NCBI GenBank assembly: GCA_020426005.1
Contig: JAGQQW010000028.1
Coordinates: 1-34,445, forward strand
Source: Planctomycetota bacterium
Lineage (GTDB): Bacteria; Planctomycetota; UBA1135; GCA-002748355
DNA length: 34,445 nt
Direction of reading: 5' to 3'
The translations under genes and the position numbers were made by a program. The stretch's first letter is position 1. Each line of letters starts with the position of its first letter. A model generated the notes under the pieces. That model had not been told where the DNA came from and searched no databases. It saw nothing but the letters and a program-made list of their open reading frames with translations. Below are positions 6,072-34,445 of the stretch, in pieces.

Positions 6072-6196
6072 ACATACGCTCCGGTTCGCTGTCCAGTCGC
6101 GCGACAACGCCGTAGGTACGGCTGGCTCAGGAAGAAGCCGGACGACTGTCGATAGTCCCAAGCGTGCTCGCATCGACCCTTCTCGCTCCAGACCCG

Positions 6197-6574
6197 ATGC
6201 AGCCTCTTGCGGCTCTGGCTCTGATCGTGCTCTGCGTGCGTGCCCTCATCGCGTGGCTCTCACCTCACCTCTTGTCTCAGTCGCGAACACACGCGATCGC
6301 GATGGGCATCATCACCGTGGCCTTCGTATTGCACCGCGTGGAGGTCGGTCACTACAGCTTGCTCACTTGGATCGAGCTCTGGGATTGGACCATCACCGAC
6401 GGTCAGTTCCTCTCGAACCCCGAGGGCATGACTCGCGCCCTGCGCTGCTATCTTCTCCCCCTCAGCGTCCTCGCCTGCGGGCTGTGGATCGGCGCATCGC
6501 GCGAGCCCAAATCCGTTGGCCCTGAGCAAGTCGCGGAGTGGATCGACGACGAGCGCGGCTCTTCAGACGCCTGA
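6197..6574 (+). CDS. Small membrane protein of unknown function
   Basis: The protein has 125 residues from the ATG at 6197. A GTG at 6164 would add 11. No clear ribosome-binding site decides between them. There are about three hydrophobic segments: LAALALIVLCVRALIAWL, a central one around AIAMGIITVAFVLH, and CYLLPLSVLACGLWIG. The end is short, acidic and soluble (EQVAEWIDDERG). I do not recognise the family. It stands alone, 125 bases after the beta-helix gene and on the same strand, so it could be cotranscribed with it. Confidence 0.6.
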   Translation: MQPLAALALIVLCVRALIAWLSPHLLSQSRTHAIAMGIITVAFVLHRVEVGHYSLLTWIELWDWTITDGQFLSNPEGMTRALRCYLLPLSVLACGLWIGASREPKSVGPEQVAEWIDDERGSSDA

Positions 6575-6746
6575 GCGAAGCCACCTAGCGCCGTGCCGAC
6601 GTCTAGCGGCTGCTTCTTCGCCATCGTCGAAGGCCGAGCGGGCGACGTGTGGGGCGGCCGATTGAGTATCGGCGGCGGCGCAACCCGAGGGGTTCGGTCT
6701 CGAGCGGAGAATGGTTGGCGCCGATTCGAGTTCGGATACGAATTGG

Positions 6747-7502
6747 CTAGTCCGACCGTGATGTACTCGACGCGAATTCGCTACTGATCCGAGGCATCCA
6801 CGCTCGCACGCGCAAGCCCGTCGCGAAGCGCGCGTGCGGCGCTTGCTGCGGCAGCTCTACGCCAGCGAGCCGCGTCATGTCGCACTGCTCGATCTCGAAG
6901 TTTGCGGGCTGCAACGGCCACGGTTCGTGCCAGATGTCCCCGCGGCGTGCGCGCCCTCGGCGGTCCACGACGAAGAGGCTGTAACGCTCGACGAGGAAGT
7001 GCTCGAGCGATCCAGGTTCGGCGGCGGACGCGGCGCCACGCGGTGCGTAGCGTGCGCGGAAGCTCGCCGGCGGCGTTCCGCGATGCGTGCGCTCGCACTC
7101 ATATTCGATCCCGCCATCGACGGAGCGACACGACATCCGTGCATCGAAGTAGGGCAGACCGAAGCTCGCGCGCGCGACGCGCACCGCGAGCTTCTGGTGG
7201 GCGTCGAGGCTGTAGAAGAAGACGCCGCTGTGCCCGCCGTGACGCACATACGTGCGGAGGTTGAGTTCGGGGAAGGTCGAGATCCACGGCAAGGGCGGCG
7301 TGCAGCGCGCGCGCACGCGAGCCATGCGGAAGGGCACGACGCCGAGCCACGCTTTGCCGTCGAAGGTCTCGAGCTCGAGCGGGGCGGGGATCGATGGGCG
7401 TAGGGCCTCGGCGCCGATCGGCCAGTGCAAGAAGAGCAAGTCGTTCCAGTCCATCGACATGGCCCAGTGGCCTTGGCGCAGTTCGTCGTGCGGTGCTGAC
7501 AT
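6747..7502 (-). CDS. DUF2071 (YqjF-like) protein
   Basis: This is a 251-residue protein, starting at the ATG at 7502. A start 14 residues in (MSMDWNDLLF) is an alternative. Hallmarks of the DUF2071/YqjF family, a fold related to acetoacetate decarboxylase, are the early MDWNDLLFLHWPI, then IPAPLELETFDGKAWLGVV, FPELNLRTYV and FFYSLDA, and the later LVERYSLFV. There is no signal peptide, so it is cytoplasmic. The biochemical role of the family is not settled. The C-terminal tail (SSEFASSTSRSD) is low-complexity and unlike the family. The gene lies 92 bases after the sulfatase stop on the same strand, so cotranscription is possible. Confidence 0.85.
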   Translation of the reverse strand: MSAPHDELRQGHWAMSMDWNDLLFLHWPIGAEALRPSIPAPLELETFDGKAWLGVVPFRMARVRARCTPPLPWISTFPELNLRTYVRHGGHSGVFFYSLDAHQKLAVRVARASFGLPYFDARMSCRSVDGGIEYECERTHRGTPPASFRARYAPRGAASAAEPGSLEHFLVERYSLFVVDRRGRARRGDIWHEPWPLQPANFEIEQCDMTRLAGVELPQQAPHARFATGLRVRAWMPRISSEFASSTSRSD

Positions 7503-12506: not shown

Positions 12507-13601
12507 TCAGCTCCGGAACATCATCACGAGGCCGTTGTTGTACGTGTTCATGATCGCGGTCACCGAGTCCGGGTCCGCCGCGCTCGTCTTCATGCGGATG
12601 ATGCCGAGATTCGTGATGGCGGCGCCGCCGCCGATGCCGTTCTCGAGACCGCGGCTCGTGATGATGCCGGGTCCGTTGGCCGCCGCGTCGATGAAGATCA
12701 TCTGCGAAAGGAAGGACACGCGGTGCAGCTTGGAGTCGTTCGGCAGTGGGAAGGTGAGCGTGAGGTCGCCGGCTGCGTTCGTGGCCCCGGCAATCATGAG
12801 GAGCGGGTCGTTGACGAGGTTGCAGCTCGTGCCTGGGATCGTGGCGTTGATCTTCGTAGCGCCGATCGAGAGGATGCCCGGAATCGTCGGCAAGAAGCTG
12901 CGTCCGATGAACGACGCGTTCGTGCTTCCGACGAAGAGCTGGTTCGTCGGGACATCGTGCTCGACGACTTTGCCGGCGTTGTTCTTGCAGCCCGCATAAC
13001 TGCCGTTTTGCAACGACCAACCGTAGCCCCGGACTGCGGAGCTGCTGACGAAGTCGAACGGGTAGCCGCCCGAGTAGGCATAGCAACGTGTCTCGACCGA
13101 GAGGGACTTGCTCGCGCTACCGGACAGCAGGAAGAACGATGCGCTGTCGAACGGGAAGTCGATGTCGAAGATCTTCAACTCATCGGGGGTCGTGCCCGAC
13201 GTCGGGTAGCTGATCTTCTTTCGAGTAAATACCGTCTTGACGCTAGCCATGTCGAAGTTGCCGTCGAAGGTCCCGGCCGGAGTTTGGCTCGTCACGCCCT
13301 TCGGTGCGTCGCCCATGCGGATCATGACTTCGACCGTGCCACCCGCTCGGTTCAAGTAGGTCGTCTGGTTCGAAGGACGGTACGCGAGGCCACGCGTGAG
13401 CGTCACGCTCGTCGACGTGAAGGTCCAACCATCGTGGATTTGCATGTAGCGCATCGGCGATGTGGCGTACGGCCAGACGTTGTTGGAGTTGACCTGCCCG
13501 AGGGCGTAGCTCGGCGAGTAGGTCACGGTCTGCGCCGTGAGAGCTCCAGTGACGAAGAGGGCAGCTGAAGTCGCTGCGATCGAGAATCGAGAGTGGCGCA
13601 T
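12507..13601 (-). CDS. Exported beta-rich protein of unknown function with shared C-terminal module
   Basis: The start at 13601 is supported by GGAGG about 5 bases upstream. A longer reading frame to 14063 has no support. The protein has 364 residues with a signal peptide (ATSAALFVTGALTAQ, residues 10-24). Residues 28-235 are rich in Tyr, Ser, Thr and short strands. The region around residues 240-325 matches the module seen in the beta-helix protein, the multicopper oxidase and the lectin-like protein: a glycine-rich turn, then LTFPLPND, then a Leu-Ser-Gln. Three cysteines (173, 205, 260) could make a disulfide. I do not recognise a named family. It is probably secreted or surface-bound. It is divergent from the aspartyl protease at 13777, with 175 bp between the starts. 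Confidence 0.78.
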   Translation of the reverse strand: MRHSRFSIAATSAALFVTGALTAQTVTYSPSYALGQVNSNNVWPYATSPMRYMQIHDGWTFTSTSVTLTRGLAYRPSNQTTYLNRAGGTVEVMIRMGDAPKGVTSQTPAGTFDGNFDMASVKTVFTRKKISYPTSGTTPDELKIFDIDFPFDSASFFLLSGSASKSLSVETRCYAYSGGYPFDFVSSSAVRGYGWSLQNGSYAGCKNNAGKVVEHDVPTNQLFVGSTNASFIGRSFLPTIPGILSIGATKINATIPGTSCNLVNDPLLMIAGATNAAGDLTLTFPLPNDSKLHRVSFLSQMIFIDAAANGPGIITSRGLENGIGGGAAITNLGIIRMKTSAADPDSVTAIMNTYNNGLVMMFRS

Positions 13602-13776
13602 GTGCCTCCAATGGCAATCGGAAAGAAGGGACACAGAGCGTACAGGGTCCAGGGCCTCCTCGCAGGTGGGTCGCAGGGTCCAGCGCGAATTCGGCGTCGC
13701 GCTAAGATCATGGCTGCGGCTGCGCCGTGCGACGCAGCGGGAACCGCGATCCACCTGGCCACGCGCCATACGTTTC

Positions 13777-14685
13777 ATGCCTCCAGGTCTCCGATCCCGA
13801 ATTCTCGCTCTCCTGCTCGTGCCGTGCTTCACCTCGCTCGTTGCCTGCGCATTCGATGCCAACGCATCGCCGCGCGCGACGATCCTGGATGCTGCGGGCG
13901 TCGCTCTCGTGACGTGGAACGACAACCTGTGCATCGCGCACGTCCATCTCGATGGGCATGGGCCATACAGGTTTCTGCTCGATACCGGCGCCTCTGCGAC
14001 GTTCGTCACGCCGGCTTGCGCGCAGGTCGCCCGACTGGAGCTCACGGCGGGGAAGCTGCACATCGACGCTGCCGGTGCGAGCCGTACGCGTCCAGTAGAG
14101 CAGGCCGTCGTCTCCGAGCTCCGGCTCGGCGGTTCGCGCTTCCAGAACGTGCCGGTCGTCGTGGTCGAGATGGAGGATGCGAGGGGGCTGGATGGTGTGC
14201 TCGGGTTTCCCGTGTTCGCCGACGTGTTGTTGACTCTCGATGGTCCTGGGCGGCGCCTCGTGCTGGAGCATGGTCGCCTACCACGACCGAACGGTGCAGA
14301 TGTCCTCGCACTCGAGAAGGGGCGACTGGAACACGAGTGTCCGCGCGTTCGAGGTCACGTCGGTGGACAGCCGGCGGTCTTCTTGATCGACAGTGGCTTC
14401 GATGGGTTCGCGTGGATGGAGAGCAGCTTTCCGCGACGGTACGGTCTCGCGTTCGAACCGGATCCTGACGGCGAGGGCACCGTGTCGACCGAGGGCGGCC
14501 GCCGGGACGTGGTGCACGGACGATTGCGAGAACGCATCACGATCGGGTCGCTCACGGTGGTGGACGTGCCCGTGATCGCAGGTCGCGGCGCGACGTGGCT
14601 GCTCGGCGGTGCCTTCCTGAAAGACTACGTCACGACGTTCGACCAGGCGTCGCGTGCCGTGCGCTTTCGGCGTACATCGAACTGA
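13777..14685 (+). CDS. Retropepsin-like aspartyl protease, probable lipoprotein
   Basis: The start at 13777 puts a signal peptide at residues 6-23, followed by a good lipobox, SLVAC, with Cys24 as the lipidated residue (302 residues in all). The first active-site motif is FLLDTGASATFV (Asp69-Thr-Gly71). The second is FLIDSGFDGF (Asp205-Ser-Gly207). DGVLGFPVF (around residues 139-147) and WLLGGAFLKDY near the C-terminus are the hydrophobic-Gly motifs that follow each half in this clan. The layout matches the gene at 2558-3553, but the sequences are well diverged. It should be a periplasmic or outer-membrane-facing peptidase. Substrate unknown. Confidence 0.83.
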   Translation: MPPGLRSRILALLLVPCFTSLVACAFDANASPRATILDAAGVALVTWNDNLCIAHVHLDGHGPYRFLLDTGASATFVTPACAQVARLELTAGKLHIDAAGASRTRPVEQAVVSELRLGGSRFQNVPVVVVEMEDARGLDGVLGFPVFADVLLTLDGPGRRLVLEHGRLPRPNGADVLALEKGRLEHECPRVRGHVGGQPAVFLIDSGFDGFAWMESSFPRRYGLAFEPDPDGEGTVSTEGGRRDVVHGRLRERITIGSLTVVDVPVIAGRGATWLLGGAFLKDYVTTFDQASRAVRFRRTSN

Positions 14686-16792: not shown

Positions 16793-18187
16793 CTACTTCG
16801 CGATCGCGCGCTGCACGAGACGCAGGTGCATGCGCACGTTGTAGAGCTCTTCGGTGTAGCCGAGCGGCACCTGCACTTGCGCGATCTCGCCATCGAGGGC
16901 CTGGAGATCACGCTGGACGCGTTCGATGGTCGTTTCCGATGGATCTTCGCGGACGCGGTCCTCGGCGGCGAGGAGCGCGCGATACCACTTGGTGATCCGT
17001 CGACGGATACGCCAACGATAGAGCGGTGGAGCGAGCTTGATCAGAGGCAAGAACAGGGTCAGCAGCGGGAGCAGCAGGACCTTGAGGCGGTCGAGGGTCG
17101 CCGCGATCTGGAACGGCAGCACGCGATACAGCCACGACAAGCCACGGCGGTAGTAGTTGTCCGCCGCGGGTGCGAGTTCGTATTCGAGTCCGTTGGGGCT
17201 GGGAAACTGCCCGGCGTCCTCGAAGAGACCGCGGGCACCGTAGATCTCCTCGGCAGCTCGGATCAACTGTGGCACGACAGCCGCGTGCAGGCCTTCGCGA
17301 GCGACCCAGCCGGCGGCGGGTGCCACGAGCTCGATGTTCTCGGACGGCGTGTTGCTGGCGAGGTTCAGCATGCCGGGAGTCAGCATGAGAGGCTCGAGGT
17401 AGGCGAAGTGGCGGCTGATCGCGTGTGCGCGCGGCAGGGTCATCACGCGTGTATCGCTGGATGCCGTGAGCTTCCGCACGGTCTCGGAATGTGGCGACGA
17501 GACCAGGAGAACGGCATCACAATCGCCGCGTTGCAACGCGGTGGCGGCGACCTTCGGATCGTCGCCGAGCAGCGTGGCGTCGTCGATGCCGGTCGCGTTC
17601 AACAACGCGGTCGTCACGCGACGCGTGCCACTGCCGGGTGAGCCGACTTGGAGTCGACGCCCATGCAGACCGGCGATTCCCTGCGTGCTGTCCACGTCAG
17701 AGCCGACGAAGATCCACAGCGGCTCGAAGTAGAGGCTCGCGATGCCCTGCAAGCCGTCGTCCGCTGCCTTCGATTCGCTGGTGTCGTTGGTACCAGCCTC
17801 GGTCGACGCTCTCGCCGCGTCCTCGATCGAACGCACCGCCGCGCGCGCCATGCTGCGCTCCGGCGCTTCGACTCCGCCCTGAACGAAGGCGACATCGACC
17901 GAGCCCTTCCGCAGCAGCGCGAGGTTCTCGATCGACCCCGCAGTGCGGCGCAGCTCGACGTCGATCCCAGAATCCTCCAGCTGGGACTTCAGCGCCTGCC
18001 CACCAAGGTCATAACCGCCGCCCTCGGGGCCCGTCGCGACGACGATCGTGCGCGGTGGCGCTTCGCCGACGAACTGCCACGCGATCGCGAACCCGATGAC
18101 GAGGATGAGCAGGCTCCAAAGCCCCACGTGGCGTGCATCGTTGTCGGCTCGTGCTACGGCGGCGAGTCGTTTCATTCTTGCGACCAT
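16793..18187 (-). CDS. TAXI-family TRAP-type solute-binding protein, membrane-anchored at both ends
   Basis: The protein has 464 residues from the ATG at 18187; another ATG lies at 18175. An N-terminal segment (residues 22-40, LWSLLILVIGFAIAWQFV) anchors the protein. Residues 46-330 resemble TAXI/NMT1-like periplasmic binding proteins: IVVATGPEGGGYDLG, NLALLRKGSVDVAFVQGG and LHGRRLQVGSPGSGTRRV. A second hydrophobic region around 363-389 is followed by a basic, helical cytoplasmic tail of about 75 residues. By family it would bind small organic acids such as glutamate-like ligands. No TRAP membrane subunits are adjacent, so it may sense rather than import. It is last in the sigma factor operon, 9 bases after the preceding gene. 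Confidence 0.85.
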   Translation of the reverse strand: MVARMKRLAAVARADNDARHVGLWSLLILVIGFAIAWQFVGEAPPRTIVVATGPEGGGYDLGGQALKSQLEDSGIDVELRRTAGSIENLALLRKGSVDVAFVQGGVEAPERSMARAAVRSIEDAARASTEAGTNDTSESKAADDGLQGIASLYFEPLWIFVGSDVDSTQGIAGLHGRRLQVGSPGSGTRRVTTALLNATGIDDATLLGDDPKVAATALQRGDCDAVLLVSSPHSETVRKLTASSDTRVMTLPRAHAISRHFAYLEPLMLTPGMLNLASNTPSENIELVAPAAGWVAREGLHAAVVPQLIRAAEEIYGARGLFEDAGQFPSPNGLEYELAPAADNYYRRGLSWLYRVLPFQIAATLDRLKVLLLPLLTLFLPLIKLAPPLYRWRIRRRITKWYRALLAAEDRVREDPSETTIERVQRDLQALDGEIAQVQVPLGYTEELYNVRMHLRLVQRAIAK

Positions 18188-18196
18188 ACGCGTGCG

Positions 18197-18499
18197 TCAC
18201 GTCGCGATCGCATCGAATCCCGTTTCAGCCGGTTGCGAATGAGCACTGTTCTTGAAGAGGTGCGCGATGCCGATCACGAGTCCGCACACGGCGAGGATGA
18301 TGCCGTACTCGCTCAACATCGCTTGTACGTCGGGATACTTCACCGAGTACGCCTTCGTGAACGGCAACGCACGCTCGGCCATGAAGTGAAAGCGGCAGTT
18401 CATCTCCGATGCCGGGATGCGCATCGGGGGCACAAGTGATACGAAGAGGATGCCGGTCAGTCCGAGGAGGCCGACGAACGTGGGGAAACGACTATTCAT
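18197..18499 (-). CDS. Small two-segment membrane protein
   Basis: The protein has 100 residues. Its start at 18499 overlaps the preceding stop as ATGA, and GGAG lies about 8 bases upstream inside that gene, so translation is probably coupled. There are hydrophobic segments at residues 6-25 (FVGLLGLTGILFVSLVPP) and 66-84 (YGIILAVCGLVIGIAHLF), with a loop between them containing CRFHFMAERALPF. No family recognised. Confidence 0.75.
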   Translation of the reverse strand: MNSRFPTFVGLLGLTGILFVSLVPPMRIPASEMNCRFHFMAERALPFTKAYSVKYPDVQAMLSEYGIILAVCGLVIGIAHLFKNSAHSQPAETGFDAIAT

Positions 18500-18789
18500 G
18501 GTCTCGACTCCAATGCGGAATATGGCGTTCGTTGTGCGTCTCGCGTCGTGAGCAGGTCGCGAATGTCGTTCAAGGCTTGGTGCGAGCGATATCGCAGGAT
18601 GCTGTGTTCGATGACGAAGCGCGTCATCACCGGGCCGAAGGTTGCGGACATGACCCACGCCCAGTTTCCGTGCGCGAAGAGCCACCACGTTCCGTAGAGC
18701 GTTCCACCGATGCCGCCCCAGAACAGGACCTGGAGCAGTAGGGGGGCCATCAGGGTGCGGAACAGCAAGAAGTCGATGACGTGTTTCAT
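18496..18789 (-). CDS. DUF4282-like membrane protein
   Basis: The protein has 97 residues. The ATG at 18789 is preferred over the one at 18795 because GAGG sits about 7 bases upstream. The N-terminus DFLLFRTLMAPLLLQVLFW is the hallmark of DUF4282 (a short acidic/aromatic start, then Pro and a long hydrophobic helix), and a second segment runs to about residue 40. The tail TRFVIEHSILRYRSHQALND also fits the family. Function unknown. It follows the sigma factor gene by 39 bases and overlaps the next gene by 4 bases. Confidence 0.75.
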   Translation of the reverse strand: MKHVIDFLLFRTLMAPLLLQVLFWGGIGGTLYGTWWLFAHGNWAWVMSATFGPVMTRFVIEHSILRYRSHQALNDIRDLLTTRDAQRTPYSALESRP

Positions 18790-18828
18790 GATCATCCTCG
18801 TGAAGTTCGCGTTTCAGGGATGCTGCGG

Positions 18829-21051
18829 TCAGTTCCAGGGATCGAAGACTTCGAGTCGTCCGTCGAAGTGACGCAACACGAAGCGATGGGGCAGGCCGAG
18901 CGGCAGGCGCTTCTGCCATGTGTGTTCGCGCGCGGTGTTCGCGTCGAGTCGTACGGTGTCGATGATGTGCCACTGTGCAGTCGCACCCGTCGGTTGCAGC
19001 ATCAGCTCGAACCGCAAGTGCGCCTTCTCGATACGGAAGCGATCGAGAACCGAACGCAGCGGAAGCTCGCGCGACACGCGGTCTGCGAGCCACTCTCCTT
19101 GCGACTCGCGAATCGTTGACGTTGTCTGCGCAACGCGCGTGCAACGACAGACGCGGCCGTCCTTTCGGAGGATCCACCCGACACGCCAATCGCGAGGAGC
19201 AGCGATCAACTCGAGCCCGCTCGCATCGATTCGATAGCCGAAGGATCGGGTACCTGCGAAGTCGAAACTCTCGACTGGTTGTCCAACGGAGATGGAGCCG
19301 TCCGCACGCTCGAGCAAGATGCTGTGCTCTTCGCCATTTGCAAAGTCTTGGATGAGGATGTGATGTGGCGCGTTGCCTTTCCCGCGAACGAACTCGATCG
19401 GCTCGTGCGTGAGGCGTTCTCCGAACGCGACGCGTGAATCGAAGACTTCGCCGTCCTCCATCAGGACCCACAGTTCGTAGTCCTTGGCCTCGAACTCGCC
19501 CCAACCGATCCTCGCGATGCCGTCCTCGATCGGCATGGAGAGGCTGGACGCCTGATCGCGCAGAACCCATCGCCCCGACACTTTGGTCGGCTGCATCGAG
19601 CCCGGGTCGAGCACGCGAACCGTGAGCGTGCGCTGAGGCGCTCCGGCTCGGAGTACGGTCCGTCCCGGTGCCGTCACGAGGTGTTCCGCTTGTTCGAACA
19701 CGAAGGAGAGTGCGGAAGCCGTGATCCGATACTCGGCGCCTTCGAGAACTTCGAGATGGAGGTCGCGGGGCCCCACGGCTTCGAGCTCTGCACCGCTGCG
19801 GATCACGACGGCCTGTCCGTGCGTGCTCGGCGCACTCGGGCGACCGAAGACGCGTGCCGGATCACCCTCGATGGCCCAGGCGGGGTCGAGATGGATACGC
19901 CAAGGCTCGTCGATCGCTGCGCCGACACACGCCACGGTGAGCGTCGAGAAGGCAGGAAGCGTGAACGCGCGCGCCGTGTCGTCACTCCGGATCTCGAAGC
20001 CGATACGGTCCTCGTTTCTCGCGATGATCCACAAGGTGCCCTGCGACGACGCCTCGGGTCGATCGAGTTCGAATGCGCCTCGTGCGGTCGTGATCTGCGC
20101 ATCGCCAGGCGGTGTGATCGTCAGAGCCTCTTCGCGACTCTTCGGCAAGCGGGCGTTCCATGTGATCCAGTAGTGAAGCCCGGCGGCTGGACTACCGTCC
20201 GCGTTCTGCACCGTCCAGTTCTCGCTGACGTGGCTTGCGTGCTGCCCAGCCTCGGTGCGCACACTCGTCGTTGCCGTTGTTGCTGGCTGTGTCGCTCGCT
20301 CGCGATCCTGTGCCTTCGCGTTCTCGCTCGAAGTCAGGGGCGCGCTGGGCAAGAGTCGAGGTCCGTCATTGGCGCTCCACACCGTGACGGCCACGAAGAT
20401 CGACGCCGCGAACAGTGGCAACGCCAAAGCCGTCGTCAGCAAGGTCTTGTTCATCATCACTCCAAGGATCATCACGCTGCCGCTCGTCGTGCTCAGGGCG
20501 CGTCCGGGATGCGCCAGCGGGATCAGGCTCAGCTTCCACGCCGATCGATCACCGTCGAACTCGGCATCCAGGTCGGTGCGCAACAGGTCGAGTGCGCGCT
20601 TCAGTCTCGTACGTACGGTTGCGCTCGGAATCCCGAGTCGAGCGGCGATCTGCTTCGGCTCGAGGCCTTCGAAGTAGCGCAGCAGGATGGTGCCGCGATA
20701 CGGCTCAGGCAGCGCGACCGCGCATCGAACGACGTGCGCGCGCGTGGCTTCGCGGTCGAGGATCTCTGCGGTCGACGGCACGGCTTCGGGTCTCGCCGCG
20801 GACTCTTCTCGTCGGCGAGCGGCTCGTCCCTGCGCCCTGCGATTGAGCGCGAGATTCCGCACGACCGTCGCGAGCCAGCCCTTGAGCGCACCGGCCTCGC
20901 GCGGAGGCTGCTCGACTGCCTTCAGCCAGGCCTGTTGCACGACATCATCGATGTCGTTGTCGTCGAGCAGCAGCGTGCGCGCCAGACCGCGCAAGAACGC
21001 CTCGTGCGCGAGGAGGGTTTCGACAGCGGGCTGTGCATGCGAGGCGACCAT
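18829..21051 (-). CDS. ECF RNA polymerase sigma factor fused to a transmembrane segment and large extracytoplasmic domain
   Basis: The protein has 740 residues, against about 180-200 for an ordinary ECF sigma factor. Residues 15-80 form sigma region 2 (ARTLLLDDNDIDDVVQQAWL, GWLATVVRNLALNRR). Residues 105-158 form region 4, with the helix-turn-helix PKQIAARLGIPSATVRTRLK. A single transmembrane helix follows (about residues 202-225, TLLTTALALPLFAASIFVAV). The remaining roughly 510 residues are beta-rich and would lie outside the membrane. No separate anti-sigma gene is adjacent, so the tail may itself hold the sigma part at the membrane until a signal arrives. It is first in an operon with DUF4282, a small membrane protein and a TAXI protein. 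Fusions of this type are known mainly from planctomycetes. Confidence 0.88.
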   Translation of the reverse strand: MVASHAQPAVETLLAHEAFLRGLARTLLLDDNDIDDVVQQAWLKAVEQPPREAGALKGWLATVVRNLALNRRAQGRAARRREESAARPEAVPSTAEILDREATRAHVVRCAVALPEPYRGTILLRYFEGLEPKQIAARLGIPSATVRTRLKRALDLLRTDLDAEFDGDRSAWKLSLIPLAHPGRALSTTSGSVMILGVMMNKTLLTTALALPLFAASIFVAVTVWSANDGPRLLPSAPLTSSENAKAQDRERATQPATTATTSVRTEAGQHASHVSENWTVQNADGSPAAGLHYWITWNARLPKSREEALTITPPGDAQITTARGAFELDRPEASSQGTLWIIARNEDRIGFEIRSDDTARAFTLPAFSTLTVACVGAAIDEPWRIHLDPAWAIEGDPARVFGRPSAPSTHGQAVVIRSGAELEAVGPRDLHLEVLEGAEYRITASALSFVFEQAEHLVTAPGRTVLRAGAPQRTLTVRVLDPGSMQPTKVSGRWVLRDQASSLSMPIEDGIARIGWGEFEAKDYELWVLMEDGEVFDSRVAFGERLTHEPIEFVRGKGNAPHHILIQDFANGEEHSILLERADGSISVGQPVESFDFAGTRSFGYRIDASGLELIAAPRDWRVGWILRKDGRVCRCTRVAQTTSTIRESQGEWLADRVSRELPLRSVLDRFRIEKAHLRFELMLQPTGATAQWHIIDTVRLDANTAREHTWQKRLPLGLPHRFVLRHFDGRLEVFDPWN

Positions 21052-21181: not shown

Positions 21182-22306
21182 TCAGCCCCGTCGAACCGAA
21201 ATCGCCAAGACCGCCAGGACCGCGCCCATGAGTAGCAGCGCCACGTAGGCCGGAAGGAGCAGCGACACGATGCCAGCGACGAACAGCGCCGCGCCGCCGA
21301 TCCAGTGCGCACGCCACTGCGCGTGCACGATCCGACCGAGATACAACCCTTGCGCCGTGAGGAAGACGATCGGGCCTCCTCCGAGCAAGAGGCTCAGAGC
21401 GAGCGAACCGCGATCGTGTGGATGCAGGATGACCTTCTCGCTTCCCACGGCGACCGCGATGAGTCCGGTGACCATCCCGAAGACGGCGACGACGGCGTGG
21501 CGGCTGACGTGGACGGGATCCTCCGTGCCTTCGACGTGTTCCGATACGAGATCGTGCGAGCGGCCGAACGTCAGGGACCACAGTGCGACGGTCGCAATCA
21601 TCGAGGCTGTACCGGCGAGCAAGGTCATCGTGTCGACCGCGCGCTCCGAAAGTGCGATCCCCGAGGTCAGAATCGTCTCACCGAGCGCGATGATGAGAAA
21701 CAGTCGACAGCGTTCGATCATGTGCTCGGCATCGAACTCGAACTCTGCTGAGCGCAGTCGCCGCGGTCCGATCGGATGGGCGAGCCAGGTGCCGATGAAG
21801 TCGACGACTGCTGCCGTCGACCACCAGAGGAGACGCGTGTCTGCATCTACCGTCGCACCGAGGATCCACAACGGAGCGGTCGCCGAGAGCCACAGCAGCA
21901 CGCGCACGAAATGCGCGCGATAGAGCCGGTCGGGCGCGAACACGATGGTCCACATCGTGCGCCCCAACTGGATCACGAGGAACGGAATCACGAACGCCCA
22001 CCCCGAATGCGTGAATGCGCCAGGGATCGAGGCGTTCATGAATAGTCCGACCCACATCACGGACAAGACCATCCACAGCGTAGGTAGATCCGTCGCGCAT
22101 GTGATCGTCGCGGCCCAACTCGTGTAGGCCCACACCGTGACCACGGCGAGCAGCAGGGTCCCTGTCTCGAGCGCGCCGTGCCAATCGAGATGGGCAAGGA
22201 GGTGATGGGAGAGTTGCGAGACCGCGAACGCGAAAACGACGTCGAAGAAAAGCTCCAACGGCGTGACCTCGTATCGCGGTGCAGAGGCAGCGGAGGTCTT
22301 GGTCAT
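21182..22306 (-). CDS. Low temperature requirement A (LtrA) family membrane protein
   Basis: The protein has 374 residues with about ten transmembrane segments. The LtrA signature is present at both expected places: ELFFDVVFAFAVSQL (residues 18-32) and ERCRLFLIIALGETIL (198-213). The conserved acidic pairs in these helices are intact. The biochemical role of the family is unknown; the name comes from a cold-growth phenotype in Listeria. No ribosome-binding site is obvious at the ATG. It is divergent from the cupin gene, with 131 bp between start codons. Confidence 0.9.
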   Translation of the reverse strand: MTKTSAASAPRYEVTPLELFFDVVFAFAVSQLSHHLLAHLDWHGALETGTLLLAVVTVWAYTSWAATITCATDLPTLWMVLSVMWVGLFMNASIPGAFTHSGWAFVIPFLVIQLGRTMWTIVFAPDRLYRAHFVRVLLWLSATAPLWILGATVDADTRLLWWSTAAVVDFIGTWLAHPIGPRRLRSAEFEFDAEHMIERCRLFLIIALGETILTSGIALSERAVDTMTLLAGTASMIATVALWSLTFGRSHDLVSEHVEGTEDPVHVSRHAVVAVFGMVTGLIAVAVGSEKVILHPHDRGSLALSLLLGGGPIVFLTAQGLYLGRIVHAQWRAHWIGGAALFVAGIVSLLLPAYVALLLMGAVLAVLAISVRRG

Positions 22307-27371: not shown

Positions 27372-28589
27372 TCAGGCGGTCGTGCCAGCGAACCACGGCA
27401 GCACGGAGCCGATCACGAGCCATGCGACAGCGGCGCCGGCGAGCCACGTGAGGATGCGTTCGGTGATTCCGTCACTCGAGCCGGAACCGAACCCACTGGT
27501 CTTGGCCTTCCACGTCACGAAGATGCTGCTGACGATCAAGAACGCGAGGTTCAAGAACAGCGTGTAGTCCACGGCGAACCACTCGCGATCCCGCACGGAC
27601 TCACCCGCGGCGGATTCGGGCATCCAGTCGAGCGCCGTGAAGCCGTAGTGCAGCGCGATCGAGCTCGTGACCAACGCGATGAGGAAGATCATGAGAATGT
27701 AGCCGGCCATCTTCCAGCCGTAGTACTTGGCTTGGATGCGGAACACGGGGAAGACGACGAGGTCGCTGAAGAGGAATGCCATGATCCCGGCGAAACTCAC
27801 GTCGTTTTCGTAGAGGACCGCCGCGAGCGGGACGTTGCCCATCGAACCGATGAACGTGAAGAACGCCGCCACTGGACCGACCAGTGCTTGGAGAAGGACC
27901 TCGACGAAGGTCGGATCGCCGCTCTCCGAACCGACGAACAGGGTCTCGAAGAAACTCTTCGGCACGAACGCCGCGATGATCCCCGCGACGGTGAACCCGA
28001 CCGTCACGTCCTTCCAGACCATCAGCCATTCCATGACGTAGCGATTCGCGACGCGGCGCCAACCTTCGCGTGAGCGAATCAGTTCCTTCCAATCGGGTGG
28101 GTCCTCGTCGTCGCTCTCTTGTTCGGAGCGCGCATGCTCGCGTGCGTCTTCGACGAATCGCTTCGAGGCGGTCCACCGCACGACGAGCCACATCACGGCG
28201 ATCAGGAGGACACCGCCGGCGTACTCGCCGACGACGAACTGCCAACTCAAGAACACCGCGATCACGATGCCGAGTTCGATCACGAAGTTGGTCGACGCGA
28301 GCAAGAACGCGAGCGACGGCACGAGCCCGGCTCCCTTCGCGAACAGCGAGCGCGTCGTCGCGAGCGCGGCGAACGAGCACGAACTCGACACGAAGCCGAA
28401 GAACGACCCGAGCAAAACGGAGCGAGCGCCTGCGTCTCCCATGCTCCGCCGCATGCGCTCGCGGGTCATGAAGACCTGGATCATGCTCGAGACGAGGTAG
28501 CCGAGTCCGAAGGCCCACAGGGCCATCCAGAAGAGACCGAGTGATGTGGACGTCGCGGAGTGCCAGGTTTGCAGGAAGTCGTTCGGCAA
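27372..28589 (-). CDS. Permease of the PF03773 (ArsP_1/UPF0718) type
   Basis: The TTG at 28589 is chosen because GGAG lies 7 bases upstream and the protein then begins LPNDFLQTWHSATSTSLGLF (405 residues). A longer ATG form to 28655 has no such site. There are about eight to ten transmembrane helices in two halves, with a long acidic cytoplasmic loop (around DAREHARSEQESDDEDPPDW). The sequence SFFGFVSSSCSFAALATTR holds the conserved cysteine-containing helix of this family, and FTFIGSMGNVPLAAVLYEND is its counterpart in the second half. Family members export arsenical compounds or are of unknown specificity. It is divergent from a multicopper oxidase, suggesting metal or metalloid handling. 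Confidence 0.87.
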   Translation of the reverse strand: MPNDFLQTWHSATSTSLGLFWMALWAFGLGYLVSSMIQVFMTRERMRRSMGDAGARSVLLGSFFGFVSSSCSFAALATTRSLFAKGAGLVPSLAFLLASTNFVIELGIVIAVFLSWQFVVGEYAGGVLLIAVMWLVVRWTASKRFVEDAREHARSEQESDDEDPPDWKELIRSREGWRRVANRYVMEWLMVWKDVTVGFTVAGIIAAFVPKSFFETLFVGSESGDPTFVEVLLQALVGPVAAFFTFIGSMGNVPLAAVLYENDVSFAGIMAFLFSDLVVFPVFRIQAKYYGWKMAGYILMIFLIALVTSSIALHYGFTALDWMPESAAGESVRDREWFAVDYTLFLNLAFLIVSSIFVTWKAKTSGFGSGSSDGITERILTWLAGAAVAWLVIGSVLPWFAGTTA

Positions 28590-28769
28590 GAGAGAGCTCC
28601 GGTGCGGTGCGTCGAAACGGCTCCTACCTGTGGTACGACGATCGAAGCATGGCAAATGACGCGGCCACCGCTGGCTCGGAATGGTGCTTCACTTGCACGA
28701 GTGACAAACGCGCGACTTCGCCGCGGGTGTGGGCTCTTCGGCGACTTGACGCCTCGAGCGGCGACTCGT

Positions 28770-30506
28770 ATGCCCAAGTGCGTGCTCGAAAAAACTTTGA
28801 TGGTCGCGGTCCTCTCCGCGACGTCTCTCCTCGCGCAGACACCGGTCGTGGATCTCACGGCGGCTCCCGGGACGGTCCAGGTCGCGCCGGGAGTGCAGGT
28901 CCAAGGTTGGTTCTACAACGGGACGCTTCCCGGACCGACGCTCCGTGTCACCGAAGGGCAGACGTTGCGGGTGCGCTTCCACAACAAGCTGCCCGATCCG
29001 AGCACGGTGCACTGGCACGGTCAGCCGGTGCGGCTCGGATTGGATGGCGTGCCGGGCATCTCGCGTCCTGCGGTCGCGCCAGGGCAGGAGTTCCTCTACG
29101 AACTTGATGGCCTCGTGCCGGGCACGTACTGGTTTCATCCCCACGTGCATGGAACGCAAGTCGATGCCGGACTGCACGGCGTGCTCATCGTCGATCCGGC
29201 CAAGTCCTCGAATGATCCGCCCTTCGATCTCGAAGAGACGATCGTGCTCGACGATTGGCGCAATCCGCTCGGCGGTGGGTTCTCCGGTCATCTCGTCAAC
29301 GGCCGCAGCAGCGCGGGGCAGACACCGGTCGCGGTGAAGAACGGCCAGAGCTTGCGATTGCGCTTCGTCAACGCTTCTGCGGTTTCGAACTACGTCGTGG
29401 CCCTCGACGGGCACCCGATGACGGTGACGCATGCCGATGGCAATCGCGTACGGCCCGTGGTCGTGCAAGCGATTCCGATCGGCATCGGCGAGCGTTACGA
29501 CGTGATCGTCGACTGCAACAATCCCGGCACGTGGAGCTTGGCGGTGTCGGCGATCGACAATCGCACGCAGACGCTCGCGCGTGCGGTCGTGAAGTACGCG
29601 GGGCAGAACCAACCGATCCCGCCCGAGACGTTCGTACCGACGAATCTCTCGAGCGGAACGCTGCTGTCCTATGCGCAGCTCGCCGCGTTCCACGCGGTCC
29701 TGCCGATCACGCCCACGCCGGACCGGAGCTACGTGGCGACGCTCGGCATGCGGGGCGGTCGCAACGGCATGCAGTTCACGATCAACGGTCAGGCGTGGCC
29801 CAACGTCACGCCCTTCGCAGTCTCGGCGAACGATCAGGTCGAGCTGACGATGACGAACCCGCCGATGATGATGCCGATGTACCACCCGATGCACGTGCAC
29901 GGACATTTCTTCCGGCTCATCGGAACCGCGGGAGGAACGACGGCGCCTCCGATCAAGGACACGGTGCTCGTCAGACCCGGTGGTCAGGTCGGCTCGTCGG
30001 TGCGCGTGCAGATGCTCATGGACAATCCCGGGAGCTGGCTCTTCCACTGCCACGATGTCGATCACATGACGCAGGGGATGATGACGCGCTTCGACTATGG
30101 CGGAGATGCGGACGCGGACGGTGTCGCCAACGCGGTCGACATGGAACCGACGCTCGCATCGCCCGTGGTCACGACTTCGGACCAAGCCGCGGCGTTCACG
30201 CTCGGTGCGACGGGCCAGATCGACGTGCAGTGGACGCCGGGGCAGCCGTTCGTGCTCTTCGCGGGGGGGAAGGAGCTGCCGACGCCGTTGCCGTTGCAGC
30301 CCTTCGGCAGGCTCGTGTTGGATCTCGGTTCGTCCATCTACTTCGGCGGAACGGTGGTGTCGAGTCAGGGGACAGCCAGTCTCCCGTACGCGATCCCGCA
30401 ACTTCCGTCCCTGGTCGGCCTGCGTCTGGGCCTGCAAGGCATCGGCGCCACCCCGCTCGTGGGCGGGCTCCGTCTCTCGACCTATCAGATCCTCACGGTC
30501 CGATAG
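28770..30506 (+). CDS. Periplasmic multicopper oxidase with a C-terminal shared module
   Basis: The protein has 578 residues from the ATG at 28770 (another ATG is at 28800), with a signal peptide ending LLAQ-T at about residue 23. All four copper motifs are present: HWHG (His81, His83), HPHVHG (His123-127), HPMHVHGHFF (His372-379) and HCHDVDHMTQGM (His426, Cys427, His428, His432, axial Met437). A Met-rich NPPMMMPMYHP stretch precedes the third, as in copper-tolerance oxidases. Residues 443-460 (DADADGVANAVD) resemble a calcium-binding repeat. Residues 470-578 are the exported module also found in three other proteins here. It probably oxidises Cu(I) or organic substrates in the periplasm. It starts the rightward metal island. 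Confidence 0.92.
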   Translation: MPKCVLEKTLMVAVLSATSLLAQTPVVDLTAAPGTVQVAPGVQVQGWFYNGTLPGPTLRVTEGQTLRVRFHNKLPDPSTVHWHGQPVRLGLDGVPGISRPAVAPGQEFLYELDGLVPGTYWFHPHVHGTQVDAGLHGVLIVDPAKSSNDPPFDLEETIVLDDWRNPLGGGFSGHLVNGRSSAGQTPVAVKNGQSLRLRFVNASAVSNYVVALDGHPMTVTHADGNRVRPVVVQAIPIGIGERYDVIVDCNNPGTWSLAVSAIDNRTQTLARAVVKYAGQNQPIPPETFVPTNLSSGTLLSYAQLAAFHAVLPITPTPDRSYVATLGMRGGRNGMQFTINGQAWPNVTPFAVSANDQVELTMTNPPMMMPMYHPMHVHGHFFRLIGTAGGTTAPPIKDTVLVRPGGQVGSSVRVQMLMDNPGSWLFHCHDVDHMTQGMMTRFDYGGDADADGVANAVDMEPTLASPVVTTSDQAAAFTLGATGQIDVQWTPGQPFVLFAGGKELPTPLPLQPFGRLVLDLGSSIYFGGTVVSSQGTASLPYAIPQLPSLVGLRLGLQGIGATPLVGGLRLSTYQILTVR

Positions 30507-30510
30507 CGAG

Positions 30511-30559
30511 CACTCGAGTGGCGCGCGCTCCGCGCCCGAGAACGGCGAAGCTCGTTTTT
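30511..30559 (+). terminator. Possible hairpin and T-tract after the oxidase gene
   Basis: The 10-base palindrome CACTCGAGTG (30511-30520) is followed by GGCGCG/CGCGCC around a 5-base loop (30520-30536), then CGAG/CTCG with TTTTT directly after (30555-30559). Together these could end transcription after the oxidase and separate it from the next gene. The last stem is only 4 bp, so support is moderate. Confidence 0.35.
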
Positions 30560-30636
30560 CGCGGACCGCGACGAGGCTCGCGCCGTAGGATACGCCTTGT
30601 CGTCGCCGCCCTGTCGGACGGCACGATGCCCGATCG

Positions 30637-31050
30637 ATGACTGGTTTCCGCAAGTTCTTGGCCCTCGTTTGCTGTGCGCTGGTGCTCACCGGCGGCATCG
30701 CGATGCGGGGCGAGACGTGCAACGCGGGCCATGCCGATCCGGGTGTCGCAGCGGCTGCTGGCTCCTCGTGCTGCGGAGCGGATTGCGGCTGTTGTGGCGA
30801 GGGCGGGGGCTGCGATGTCGCTTGTGCCTGTTCGGTCGATCCCGAGGGCCCGATCGAACCCGAGGCGATCCTCGTCGTGCATCGATCGAGCCCGATGGTG
30901 GCTGCGGAGGCCGAGAAGCCCGAGCCGCGAAGTCCATTGCGACGCCGCGCGAAGCGGGTTCGACCGGTTTCGAGCCAGCTCGGTGCACGGCGGTTCGCGC
31001 TGCACACGAACTGCTCCCTCCACGTCGCGCATTCGGTCTGGCGGTTGTAG
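30637..31050 (+). CDS. Small cysteine-rich exported protein
   Basis: The protein has 137 residues with a signal-like N-terminus (residues 5-22). Between residues 28 and 65 there are nine cysteines (28, 45, 46, 50, 52, 53, 59, 63, 65), including adjacent pairs and CxxC-like spacing (SSCCGADCGCCGEGGGC). The remainder is acidic then basic, with several histidines near the C-terminus. The cysteine density suggests a metal-binding or metal-sequestering protein, consistent with its place between a multicopper oxidase and a Cus-type exporter. I do not recognise a named family. Its start overlaps, as ATGA, the stop of a 4-codon reading frame beginning at 30625, which may be chance. Confidence 0.72.
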   Translation: MTGFRKFLALVCCALVLTGGIAMRGETCNAGHADPGVAAAAGSSCCGADCGCCGEGGGCDVACACSVDPEGPIEPEAILVVHRSSPMVAAEAEKPEPRSPLRRRAKRVRPVSSQLGARRFALHTNCSLHVAHSVWRL

Positions 31051-31055
31051 CGAGG

Positions 31056-31087
31056 CTCGGTGGGGACCGTTCTGTACCCACCGCGAG
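31056..31087 (+). other. Hairpin between the cysteine-rich gene and the efflux operon
   Basis: GGTGGG (31059-31064) and CCCACC (31077-31082) pair around a 12-base loop, and CTC/GAG extend the stem across a 2-base bulge. It lies 70 bases before the TolC-like start. There is no T-tract, so an attenuator, mRNA stability element or operator are all possible. Confidence 0.4.
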
Positions 31088-31157
31088 AAGAGTGACCCCT
31101 GAGTGCGGCGAGGATGCCGCCCTGGTCTTTCGTTTCGATTCTCGAGCCTGACTACCG

Positions 31158-32621
31158 ATGAGTGCATTCCCTGTCGGCGCCCAGCGCCAGCGGCGGAGAC
31201 TCGTAGCGACGTCGATCTGCGTCGCGCTTGGCGGCTGTACGCCGTTCTACGAGCTTGCGCCGGACGTTCGGCAGCGCATCGCCGCCGAGAGCGATGGGCT
31301 GTCCCCGAAGATCTCCGACCACGAAGACGTGCGCCGGGTTGCGGAGCGCGCCGCGCACGGCGTGCTCGCAGACCCTGCGCCGATCGCTGTCCGCGACGGG
31401 TCCGGTCTCGCGGACTACATCCGTTGGGCCTTGGATCGCAACCCGCGGCTGCAGGCGCGAGTCCGCGATATCGAAGCACTCGGCATGCGGGTGCCTCAGG
31501 TTTCGTCGTTGGGCGACCCGATGCTCTCGTTGGTCCCGCCGACGGGGGACCTCGTCCAGACGGCGGGGGGCGCGATGCAGGCGGCCGTCGGTTTGAGTCA
31601 GGGTCTTCCGTGGCCCGGCAAACTCGAGACCTTGGGCAAGGTCGCCGAACACGTCGTGCGCATCGCGATCTCCAACCTCGACACGGAGCGACTCCGCGTC
31701 GTTGCCGACGTCAAGCAAGCCTATTTCGATCTCTATCGCGCCCGGGTCTCGATCGACGTCTCGCGAGCGCTCGAGGTGCTGCTCCAGCGCGTGCGCGACA
31801 GTGCCCAGTCGCGCATCACGACCGGACTCGCGAGCCAGCAGGACTTGCTGCGCACGGAGGTCGAGCTCTACGCGCTCACGAATGCCCGCCTCGACTACGA
31901 GCAGGAGTCGACGACTGCCAGAGCACGACTCAACGTGCTGATGGACCGTCCCGTCGATGCCCGATTGCCGATGCCCGGACCGCTCGAAGCCGCTCCCCTG
32001 CAATGGCGTCTCCTCGCGCTTCTGCAGCGTGCCGACGAGTTCGGGCCTCAGCTGGCCGCGTTGCGCACACGGATCGAGGCCGACCTGCTGCGCGTCGACT
32101 ACGCCGACTTGGCGTACTACCCCGACCTCGGTCTGGGTGGGCTCTTCACGTTCATCGCGAGCGGTGGGCGAAGCCCCGTCGCGGACGGCAGCGACGTGTG
32201 GAATCTCAATCTCGGGGTCACGCTCCCGATCTTCCGAGACAAGCTCGATGCCGGTGTCCTGCAGCGCAATGCCGAGGCAATCGCGAGCGTGCATCGCTAC
32301 CGCGATGGGCGCAATCGAGTGGTCCTCGCGTTGCAGCAGCAACTGGCCCGCGTCGATGCCGACTATCGCAAGGCCGTGTTGCTGCGAGACGGGATCTTGC
32401 CGCGCGCCGACCAGGCGGTGCGCGTTGCCCAGACCGGCTACGACGCCGGAACCGTCGAGTTCGCGACGCTGCTCGCCGCATGGCGCAGGTTGTTCGAACT
32501 CACGCTCGACTATCACCGCGCACTCGCGGCCCTCGAGCACGGAGTCAGCGAAGTCGAATACCTCGCCGGCGGTGACCTGCCGCGCGAAGAGCCAAGGGAA
32601 ATCCAGGAGGACGAGAGATGA
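31158..32621 (+). CDS. TolC/CusC-family outer-membrane efflux lipoprotein
   Basis: The protein has 487 residues. The signal peptide ends in ALGGC, a good lipobox with Cys27 as the lipidated residue. Two repeats of the OEP fold are visible as long amphipathic helices: about residues 85-260 (RNPRLQARVRDIEALG, AYFDLYRARVSIDVSRALEV) and 300-470 (ALRTRIEADLLRVDYADLAY, ATLLAAWRRLFELTLDYHRAL). It forms the outer-membrane channel of a tripartite RND exporter. It overlaps the adaptor gene by 4 bases (ATGA), so the two are coupled. Confidence 0.92.
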   Translation: MSAFPVGAQRQRRRLVATSICVALGGCTPFYELAPDVRQRIAAESDGLSPKISDHEDVRRVAERAAHGVLADPAPIAVRDGSGLADYIRWALDRNPRLQARVRDIEALGMRVPQVSSLGDPMLSLVPPTGDLVQTAGGAMQAAVGLSQGLPWPGKLETLGKVAEHVVRIAISNLDTERLRVVADVKQAYFDLYRARVSIDVSRALEVLLQRVRDSAQSRITTGLASQQDLLRTEVELYALTNARLDYEQESTTARARLNVLMDRPVDARLPMPGPLEAAPLQWRLLALLQRADEFGPQLAALRTRIEADLLRVDYADLAYYPDLGLGGLFTFIASGGRSPVADGSDVWNLNLGVTLPIFRDKLDAGVLQRNAEAIASVHRYRDGRNRVVLALQQQLARVDADYRKAVLLRDGILPRADQAVRVAQTGYDAGTVEFATLLAAWRRLFELTLDYHRALAALEHGVSEVEYLAGGDLPREEPREIQEDER

Positions 32622-34445
32622 ACGCTTCGACCCCAGCATCTCAGGACACACGCCGTCGCCCACCGAAGGCAGGTCGTACGTTGGTCCTCATCCTCGTGCT
32701 GTGCGTCGTCGGCGCTGCCTTGCTCTTCGTCGGCGACCGATACGGCGCGCGCATTGGTGCCTTCTTCGGCGAGGTGCGAAGCGACTTGTTCGGAGGCAAA
32801 GCGGTTCACGAGAAGAAGGACGACGGTCCAGCCTTCTACACGTGCGGCATGCATCCATGGGTGATCCTGCCCCAACCGGGACTCTGCCCGATCTGCCACA
32901 TGGATCTGACTCCGCTGGATCCTTCGAAGTTCGGTGGCGAGATCTCGATCGACCCCGTCATCGCGCAGAACATCGGCGTCCGTACTCGCCTCGTCGAGCG
33001 CGGTCCGCTCGTCGGCACGGTCCGCACCGTCGGGAACGTCGATTACGACGAGACCTCGCTGCACGACGTCAACTTGCGAGTGTCGGGTTGGATCGAGAAG
33101 CTCTACGTCGACTTCCTCGGTGCGGACGTCGAGCAGGGGCAACCGCTCTTCGAACTCGATTCGCCCGAGCTGCTCCAGGCGCAACGCGACTACCTCCTCG
33201 CTCTCGAGCAGGAGAAGCAACCGGACGTTTCGTTCGTTCCGAGGATCGCTGCCGATGCCGCGTCCACGACAGATGCCGTTCGAGCGCGACTCCGATACTA
33301 CGGAATCGACGATGCACAGATCGAGCAGTTGGAGCGCGATCGACGTGCACGCAAGACGATGACGATCCAGAGCCCGGCTTCGGGCACGGTCGTCGACAAG
33401 ATGGCCGTCGATGGCATGCGCGTCGATCCAGGCATGCGTATGTATCGCATCGCGGATCTCGCCAAGGTCTGGGTCACCGCGACGGTCTACGAGTATCAGT
33501 TGCCGTTCGTCGAGCTCGGCCAGGAGGCGACGGTGCGCCTGTCCTACGTGCCCGGCGAGGAATTCCATGGCCGCGTCACCTACGTGTATCCGTGGACCGA
33601 CGAGAAGACGCGCGAGGTGCGTGTCCGTCTCGAGTTCGACAACGGCAAGGGACTCCTCAAGCCGGGCATGTTCGTGAACGTCGAGTTGCGGCGGACGCTG
33701 GCTGCCGAGCGCACGCTCGTCGATCGCTTCGCGGTCATCGACACTGGCGAGAGGCAAGTTGCGATCGTGAGCCTCGGCAAGGGTCGCTTCGAGCCACGTG
33801 ACGTTCGTGTCGGTATCGAAACCGATGGCGGCAAGGTCGAGGTGCTCGATGGACTCGTGCCAGGCGAACGCGTGGTGACGAGTGCACAGTTCTTGCTCGA
33901 TAGCGAGGCCAAGATCCGAGAGGGGCTCGCGCGCATGGTGCGCGGCGACGTCGTCGGGCAAGAAGCGGCCAAGCCCGTCGCGGGTCCCGAACTCGCCTCC
34001 CTGCCACCTGCGCTGCAATCCGCGATCGAGAACGTACTCGCGGCCTATCTGCGCATCGGGGACATGCTCGCTTCGGACGAGACCACGGGTCTCGACGAAC
34101 GAGGGCTCGAGATCGCCGCCGCCGTCGACTCGATGCTCGCAGTCGAACTCGCAGGGCACGATGGGTTCTGGCAAGCGCACGACGAGGTCGCGACCGTGAG
34201 GGGCAAGGCGTTCGCGCTGGCGGGTGGGCCCGATCTCGCGGAGGCGCGTCTGCTCTTCGCGGATCTCAGCATCGCGCTGAGCAAGCTTCTGCGAGCCACC
34301 GGAGTTCCGTCATCCCCGGCGGGACCACTCGAAGATCTGCACTGTCCGATGTTCCTCGAGAACCAAGGTGGCGCGAGTTGGTTGCAGCGCGCCGGCGAGG
34401 TCAAGAACCCGTTCTTCGGCGAGAAGATGCTGTCGTGCTTCGACG
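32618..34445 (+). CDS. cusB: CusB-like RND periplasmic adaptor with metal-binding domains at both ends (3' end outside window)
   Basis: The frame is open from the ATG at 32618 (AGGAGG about 9 bases upstream) to the end of the window, giving at least 609 residues. An N-terminal helix (about residues 24-42) anchors it. Residues 73-100 form a heavy-metal-binding domain: YTCGMHP with Cys76, Met78 and His79, then CPICHMDL with Cys90, Cys93 and Met95. Residues 107-440 form the adaptor core, with lipoyl half-motifs (LRVSGWIEKLYVDFLGADVE and SPASGTVVDKMAVDGM) and a beta-barrel (VWVTATVYEYQLPFVELGQE). Residues about 465 onward form a DUF3347-type domain ending HCPMFLENQGG (His575-Cys576) and NPFFGEKMLSCF. 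It should hand Cu(I)/Ag(I) to an RND pump expected next. Confidence 0.93.
   Translation, partial: MNASTPASQDTRRRPPKAGRTLVLILVLCVVGAALLFVGDRYGARIGAFFGEVRSDLFGGKAVHEKKDDGPAFYTCGMHPWVILPQPGLCPICHMDLTPLDPSKFGGEISIDPVIAQNIGVRTRLVERGPLVGTVRTVGNVDYDETSLHDVNLRVSGWIEKLYVDFLGADVEQGQPLFELDSPELLQAQRDYLLALEQEKQPDVSFVPRIAADAASTTDAVRARLRYYGIDDAQIEQLERDRRARKTMTIQSPASGTVVDKMAVDGMRVDPGMRMYRIADLAKVWVTATVYEYQLPFVELGQEATVRLSYVPGEEFHGRVTYVYPWTDEKTREVRVRLEFDNGKGLLKPGMFVNVELRRTLAAERTLVDRFAVIDTGERQVAIVSLGKGRFEPRDVRVGIETDGGKVEVLDGLVPGERVVTSAQFLLDSEAKIREGLARMVRGDVVGQEAAKPVAGPELASLPPALQSAIENVLAAYLRIGDMLASDETTGLDERGLEIAAAVDSMLAVELAGHDGFWQAHDEVATVRGKAFALAGGPDLAEARLLFADLSIALSKLLRATGVPSSPAGPLEDLHCPMFLENQGGASWLQRAGEVKNPFFGEKMLSCFD

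Follow-up and report, generated by a model that had tools for sequence, protein, structure and literature searches.

Predicted membrane-tethered ECF sigma factor and an orphan TAXI-type binding protein encoded side by side in a Planctomycetota bacterium

Among ECF sigma factors that are fused to a membrane anchor, IutY of Pseudomonas putida (group ECF243) has been studied by experiment: it carries a C-terminal transmembrane (TM) helix, a periplasmic domain and a recognisable fused anti-sigma factor, takes part in iron cell-surface signalling, and is released by Prc and RseP (PMC8999054). The groups ECF48, ECF52 and ECF53 of Actinobacteria, e.g. SCO4117, consist of a sigma part, a zinc-finger domain, a C-terminal TM helix and an extracytoplasmic domain, and their release is expected to proceed likewise (PMC8999054). 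Among TAXI binding proteins, structures are available for VcGluP and TtGluBP (PDB 8s4j and 1us4). VcGluP, whose gene adjoins the gene of its own TRAP membrane subunit, binds glutamate through residues Y45, S75, Q93, and E125 (PMC11574862), and the TAXI-GltS protein BP0403 is a gltS-linked lipoprotein with an extra N-terminal domain (PMC12344293).

Here we describe a locus in which a sigma fusion and a TAXI protein are encoded together. The window, i.e. the whole analysed stretch of 34,445 nucleotides from a Planctomycetota bacterium, contains four consecutive open frames on the minus strand (21051 to 16793), coding for the sigma fusion, a DUF4282-like protein, a small membrane protein, and the TAXI protein in this order. 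The four genes and the gene preceding them are as follows:

21182..22306, minus strand: LtrA-family membrane protein (domain match), ending 130 bases upstream of the sigma gene
18829..21051, minus strand: predicted membrane-tethered ECF sigma factor P0001 (740 aa; Sigma70 domains and hydropathy)
18496..18795, minus strand: DUF4282-like membrane protein P0002 (99 aa; start possibly 18789; homologues L106 and L107 are DUF4282 proteins)
18197..18499, minus strand: small membrane protein P0003 (100 aa; predicted to cross the membrane twice; matches no known family)
16793..18187, minus strand: predicted dual-anchored orphan TAXI binding protein (464 aa; profiles, AlphaFold and Foldseek)

The gaps between the four genes are 33, -4, and 9 bases, the first becoming 39 bases if P0002 starts at its second ATG (18789), and the original prediction of four genes in one direction with gaps of 39, -4, and 9 was correct apart from this choice of start. 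Downstream of the TAXI gene, the next gene starts about 155 bases further on, given an ATG at about 16637. Scans of the locus for promoters and terminators gave signals no higher than the shuffle level. Among about 20 TM-sigma genes with downstream sequence, a same-strand gene less than 50 bases past the stop is nearly unique to the window gene, and a real operon is possible because the window sigma gene is almost alone in this respect; co-transcription of the four genes is plausible from their layout.

Other genes of the window include a TPR-CHAT protein (26-2467; CHAT 5.5e-48, with a PDZ domain within the CHAT match), two proteins that each contain paired retropepsin-like aspartyl protease domains (2558-3553 and 13537-14685), and a region (27372-34445) with an ArsP_1 permease, a multicopper oxidase, an outer membrane efflux protein, and a CusB-like protein with a heavy-metal-binding domain, which is likely a metal resistance cluster.

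P0001 matches Sigma70_r2 at residues 15-74 (E=1.3e-9), Sigma70_r4_2 at residues 109-155 (E=2.4e-12), and TIGR02937 (3e-19). Sigma2 and sigma4, contained in residues 1-165, are its sole sigma regions, as in ECF factors. They are followed by the juxtamembrane stretch GDRSAWKLSLIPLA (residues 167-180) and, by hydropathy, a TM helix at residues 204-222, beyond which lie about 515 residues of predicted ectodomain; a sigma factor with its own helix and about 510 extracytoplasmic residues had been expected from the original reading. P0001 therefore has the arrangement of a tethered member, i.e. a TM helix shortly after sigma4 and a long ectodomain. A second hydrophobic stretch (residues 362-380) would more probably form a beta strand than a TM helix. 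No Pfam match to CarboxypepD_reg was obtained in the ectodomain, no ZAS-type anti-sigma motif (HxxxCxxC-like) was found in P0001, and the single-sequence AlphaFold model of the protein (pLDDT 36) was unusable.

Relatives of P0001 (match at or below 1e-15) were detected in 101 of the 151 genomes searched. The source genome (6.0 Mb in 634 contigs, 67% complete) contains 20 sites matching P0001, many of them in frames of 900-1270 aa. In the complete genome of Planctomycetes bacterium Poly30, a member of the same order which we take to be Saltatorellus ferox, at least 40 ECF genes (Sigma70_r4_2 matches) have frames no shorter than 650 aa, this figure being a lower bound counted by hand from the matches listed. 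Saltatorellus belongs to the Planctomycetota (NCBI). The sigma family thus appears to be widespread, with dozens of putative tethered ECF members per genome in the order, and it may be one of the ECF groups that have been numbered before. Examples of tethered sigma factors across the order are found at L098, L099, L100, L101, L102, L104, and L049. A scan of a collection of genome contigs with the sigma protein alone, which is sensitive to close relatives only, returned no relative.

In 43 of the 50 homologues examined, a TM helix follows sigma4. Between sigma4 and this helix a GDRxxWxxxLxPLA stretch is conserved across the family (G in 78%, D 69%, R 73%, W 85%, L 82%, P 80%, and L 60% of rows); a looser form of the pattern is present in 30 of the 44 TM-bearing members (P0001 included) versus none of the seven members without a TM helix, a contrast due partly to relatedness because those seven are more distant. 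The HxxxCxxC-like ZAS motif is absent from all 44 TM-bearing members (P0001 and 43 relatives), which agrees with the original view of a sigma fusion working without an anti-sigma factor. CarboxypepD_reg repeats, one to five in each protein, were found in the ectodomains of seven out of seven long relatives scanned, making them common in the family, though not demonstrably universal. Since these relatives have the repeats and P0001 does not, the shared part consists of the sigma regions, the motif, and the TM helix.

P0001 and IutY are alike in combining an ECF factor, a C-terminal TM helix and a domain on the far side of the membrane with no separate anti-sigma factor, but P0001 shows no domain comparable to the fused anti-sigma factor of IutY. 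The layout of sigma part, C-terminal TM helix and extracytoplasmic domain is likewise shared with ECF48, ECF52 and ECF53, whereas a zinc finger is found in those groups only. By analogy, P0001 would share its working principle with IutY and ECF48/52/53 without belonging to their groups.

We propose that the locus probably encodes a self-contained transmembrane sigma switch beside an independent orphan TAXI binding protein. In this model, the ECF sigma factor would be kept at the membrane by its own TM helix, with the large extracytoplasmic domain acting as the sensor; in the resting state, the tether and the juxtamembrane stretch would hold the sigma domain off RNA polymerase, or hold it inactive on the polymerase. 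A trigger from outside, be it a ligand, a partner or stress on the envelope, would then free the sigma domain through two-step proteolysis or, less likely, through a conformational change. The TAXI protein, anchored twice and with a cytosolic helical tail, would be independent of the sigma fusion and act as a receptor or with a partner, possibly in transport.

The sigma fusion would most likely be sequestered at the membrane and released by proteolysis, a judgement we hold at about even strength, because IutY works in this way and because an M50 protease is encoded in the source genome (an 878-aa frame split by an inserted stretch, with an RseP-like layout). The protease adds little weight, since M50 proteases are, to our knowledge, near-universal. 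A tethered sigma factor could instead recruit RNA polymerase uncleaved, with binding to the ectodomain shifting the juxtamembrane stretch; this is in keeping with the conservation of the juxtamembrane motif and with the C-terminal extensions of ECF41-type factors, which work by conformation, but IutY, the TM-fused ECF factor studied by experiment, is activated by proteolysis (PMC8999054), and we consider a purely conformational switch unlikely.

The TAXI protein matches NMT1_3 (8.6e-20) and TRAP_TAXI (TIGR02122; 1.2e-25), in the latter case with 90.0 bits, above the curated cut-off of 84.35. In its AlphaFold model (pLDDT 89), an N-terminal helix precedes a two-lobed binding protein, which is followed by a long helix (residues 359-414) and two more helices up to the C-terminus; the predicted topology consists of a TM helix at residues 21-39, the binding fold at about 46-350, a second TM helix at about 366-390, and a cytosolic helical tail to residue 464, so that the long helix would cross the membrane. 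The model and hydropathy agree on anchoring at both ends, as was originally predicted. The C-terminal TM helix and tail are conserved together with the binding domain in relatives, and the double anchor is therefore a family trait. About 30 residues (approximately 112-143) form an insertion absent from relatives in the order.

The top Foldseek matches of the model are TAXI proteins, several of them glutamate-bound. In a HMMER alignment to 8s4j, the four glutamate-binding residues of VcGluP given above correspond, in the same order, to Y59, S85, Q103, and E155; 25 sequences all have Q103, and 11 all have Y59. The ligand is probably glutamate or a similar acid, to judge from these equivalents. 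The window protein thus shares with VcGluP and TtGluBP the fold (Foldseek E about 4e-18) and the equivalents of the binding residues; in contrast to it, the solved chains of those two proteins are without the C-terminal TM helix and cytosolic tail, and its gene has no TRAP membrane subunit gene as neighbour, unlike that of VcGluP. A membrane-anchored TAXI transporter has reportedly been described by Roden et al. in 2023. The window protein resembles such transporters and BP0403 in being tied to the membrane or, as far as the 67%-complete genome shows, in being without a TRAP partner, but it is not accompanied by gltS as BP0403 is.

Orthologues of the TAXI protein are present in 10 of 150 relatives, and the GTDB species set contains 110 loci with a relative, including Planctomycetota, Burkholderiaceae, Rhodospirillales, and Thermoanaerobaculia; relatives also occur on plasmids, where several bear the name TAXI family TRAP transporter solute-binding subunit. 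At the loci of the 10 genomes and of the GTDB set, the gene neighbours differ from those in the window. No neighbour shared across families was found at the TAXI loci of other bacteria, the shared neighbours of the Burkholderiaceae loci being confined to Burkholderiaceae and left aside here. The TAXI proteins would thus form a widespread orphan family that extends to other phyla.

The TAXI protein could also, though this is unlikely, belong to a transporter whose membrane subunit is distant, unrecognised or unassembled, in which case the sigma factor would control at most the expression of TAXI. Known TAXI proteins pair with TRAP subunits or GltS (PMC12344293, PMC11574862), the source genome is 67% complete, and a DctM match is present in 7 of the 10 other TAXI-bearing genomes of the order. 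Against this, neither DctM nor GltS was detected in the source genome at that completeness, no DctM was found in TAXI-bearing G020, G056, and G075 (88-91% complete), and the TAXI loci of other bacteria have no cross-family neighbour. Glt_symporter was not matched above the cut-off in any of 11 genomes. A search of the source genome for a TRAP or GltS transporter that might use the TAXI protein from another site yielded no candidate in the 67%-complete assembly; the description of the TAXI protein as being without transporter subunits holds within that coverage.

For the small membrane proteins, P0002 scores 13.8 bits (E=0.09) against DUF4282 (PF14110), with a gathering score of 27, but its homologues L106 and L107 match above the cut-off (1.3e-13 and 6.3e-16), and because of these matches P0002 probably belongs to the DUF4282 family. 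Homologues of P0002 are few, and neither sigma nor TAXI genes lie beside them in the short stretches seen. No relative of P0003 was found in 151 genomes.

No other instance of the four-gene order was found (151 genomes and 110 GTDB TAXI loci), an outcome that the original reading had named as refuting it. When the surroundings of ten full-length TAXI genes of the order were searched for relatives of the sigma protein, only Poly30 gave one, and Poly30 was again the sole case of a sigma gene among 75 named loci from which the TAXI gene could be recovered. A genome of the same genus has no TAXI gene, and the closest full-length sigma homologues in G053 and G056 lie on contigs other than that of TAXI. 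In Poly30, one sigma gene (L049) is divergent from TAXI with one gene between them; another (L052) is directly divergent from a second TAXI copy, truncated after about 160 residues. Around this truncated copy and its TM-sigma gene (L052:5026-5548 with 6148-7242), a transposase-like frame was noted by reading. A TM-sigma gene lies within 6 kb of TAXI at 3 of the 12 TAXI loci of the order (the window and two in Poly30), versus 0.5-1.5 loci expected by chance (P 0.02-0.18), under rough assumptions in which TM-sigma densities were estimated with fractions of 0.25-0.7, and counting the window itself favours association. Gene density roughly allows this count, with room for a loose association; the adjacency of sigma and TAXI appears to be a local arrangement.

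The original prediction is therefore upheld for the tethered sigma factor, the missing ZAS motif and the lack of a detectable TAXI partner, but not for its signalling route, in which a solute sensed by the TAXI protein would be signalled to the sigma fusion by way of the DUF4282-like protein and the small membrane protein: despite the close packing on one strand, including an overlap of 4 bases, the conserved cytosolic TAXI tail, the lack of a detected transporter partner and the three loci within 6 kb, we regard such a four-part sensor as highly improbable, given the unconserved gene order, the TAXI-free genome of the same genus, the separate contigs in G053 and G056, the divergent or truncated pairs of Poly30, a chance expectation of 0.5-1.5 loci, and a P0003 without relatives. 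Equally remote in our estimation is contact of the TAXI tail or the small membrane proteins with the sigma fusion, which would make a locally assembled, solute-responsive switch that recurs loosely in Poly30.

With the self-contained sigma switch as the preferred reading, two families at this locus look under-studied: tethered sigma factors with no recognisable anti-sigma domain, and double-anchored TAXI proteins, for which a transporter is often lacking. Should a stimulus set the sigma fusions free, one-protein switches would handle much of the envelope sensing in this order, and Poly30, with its complete genome, would be well suited to testing them.
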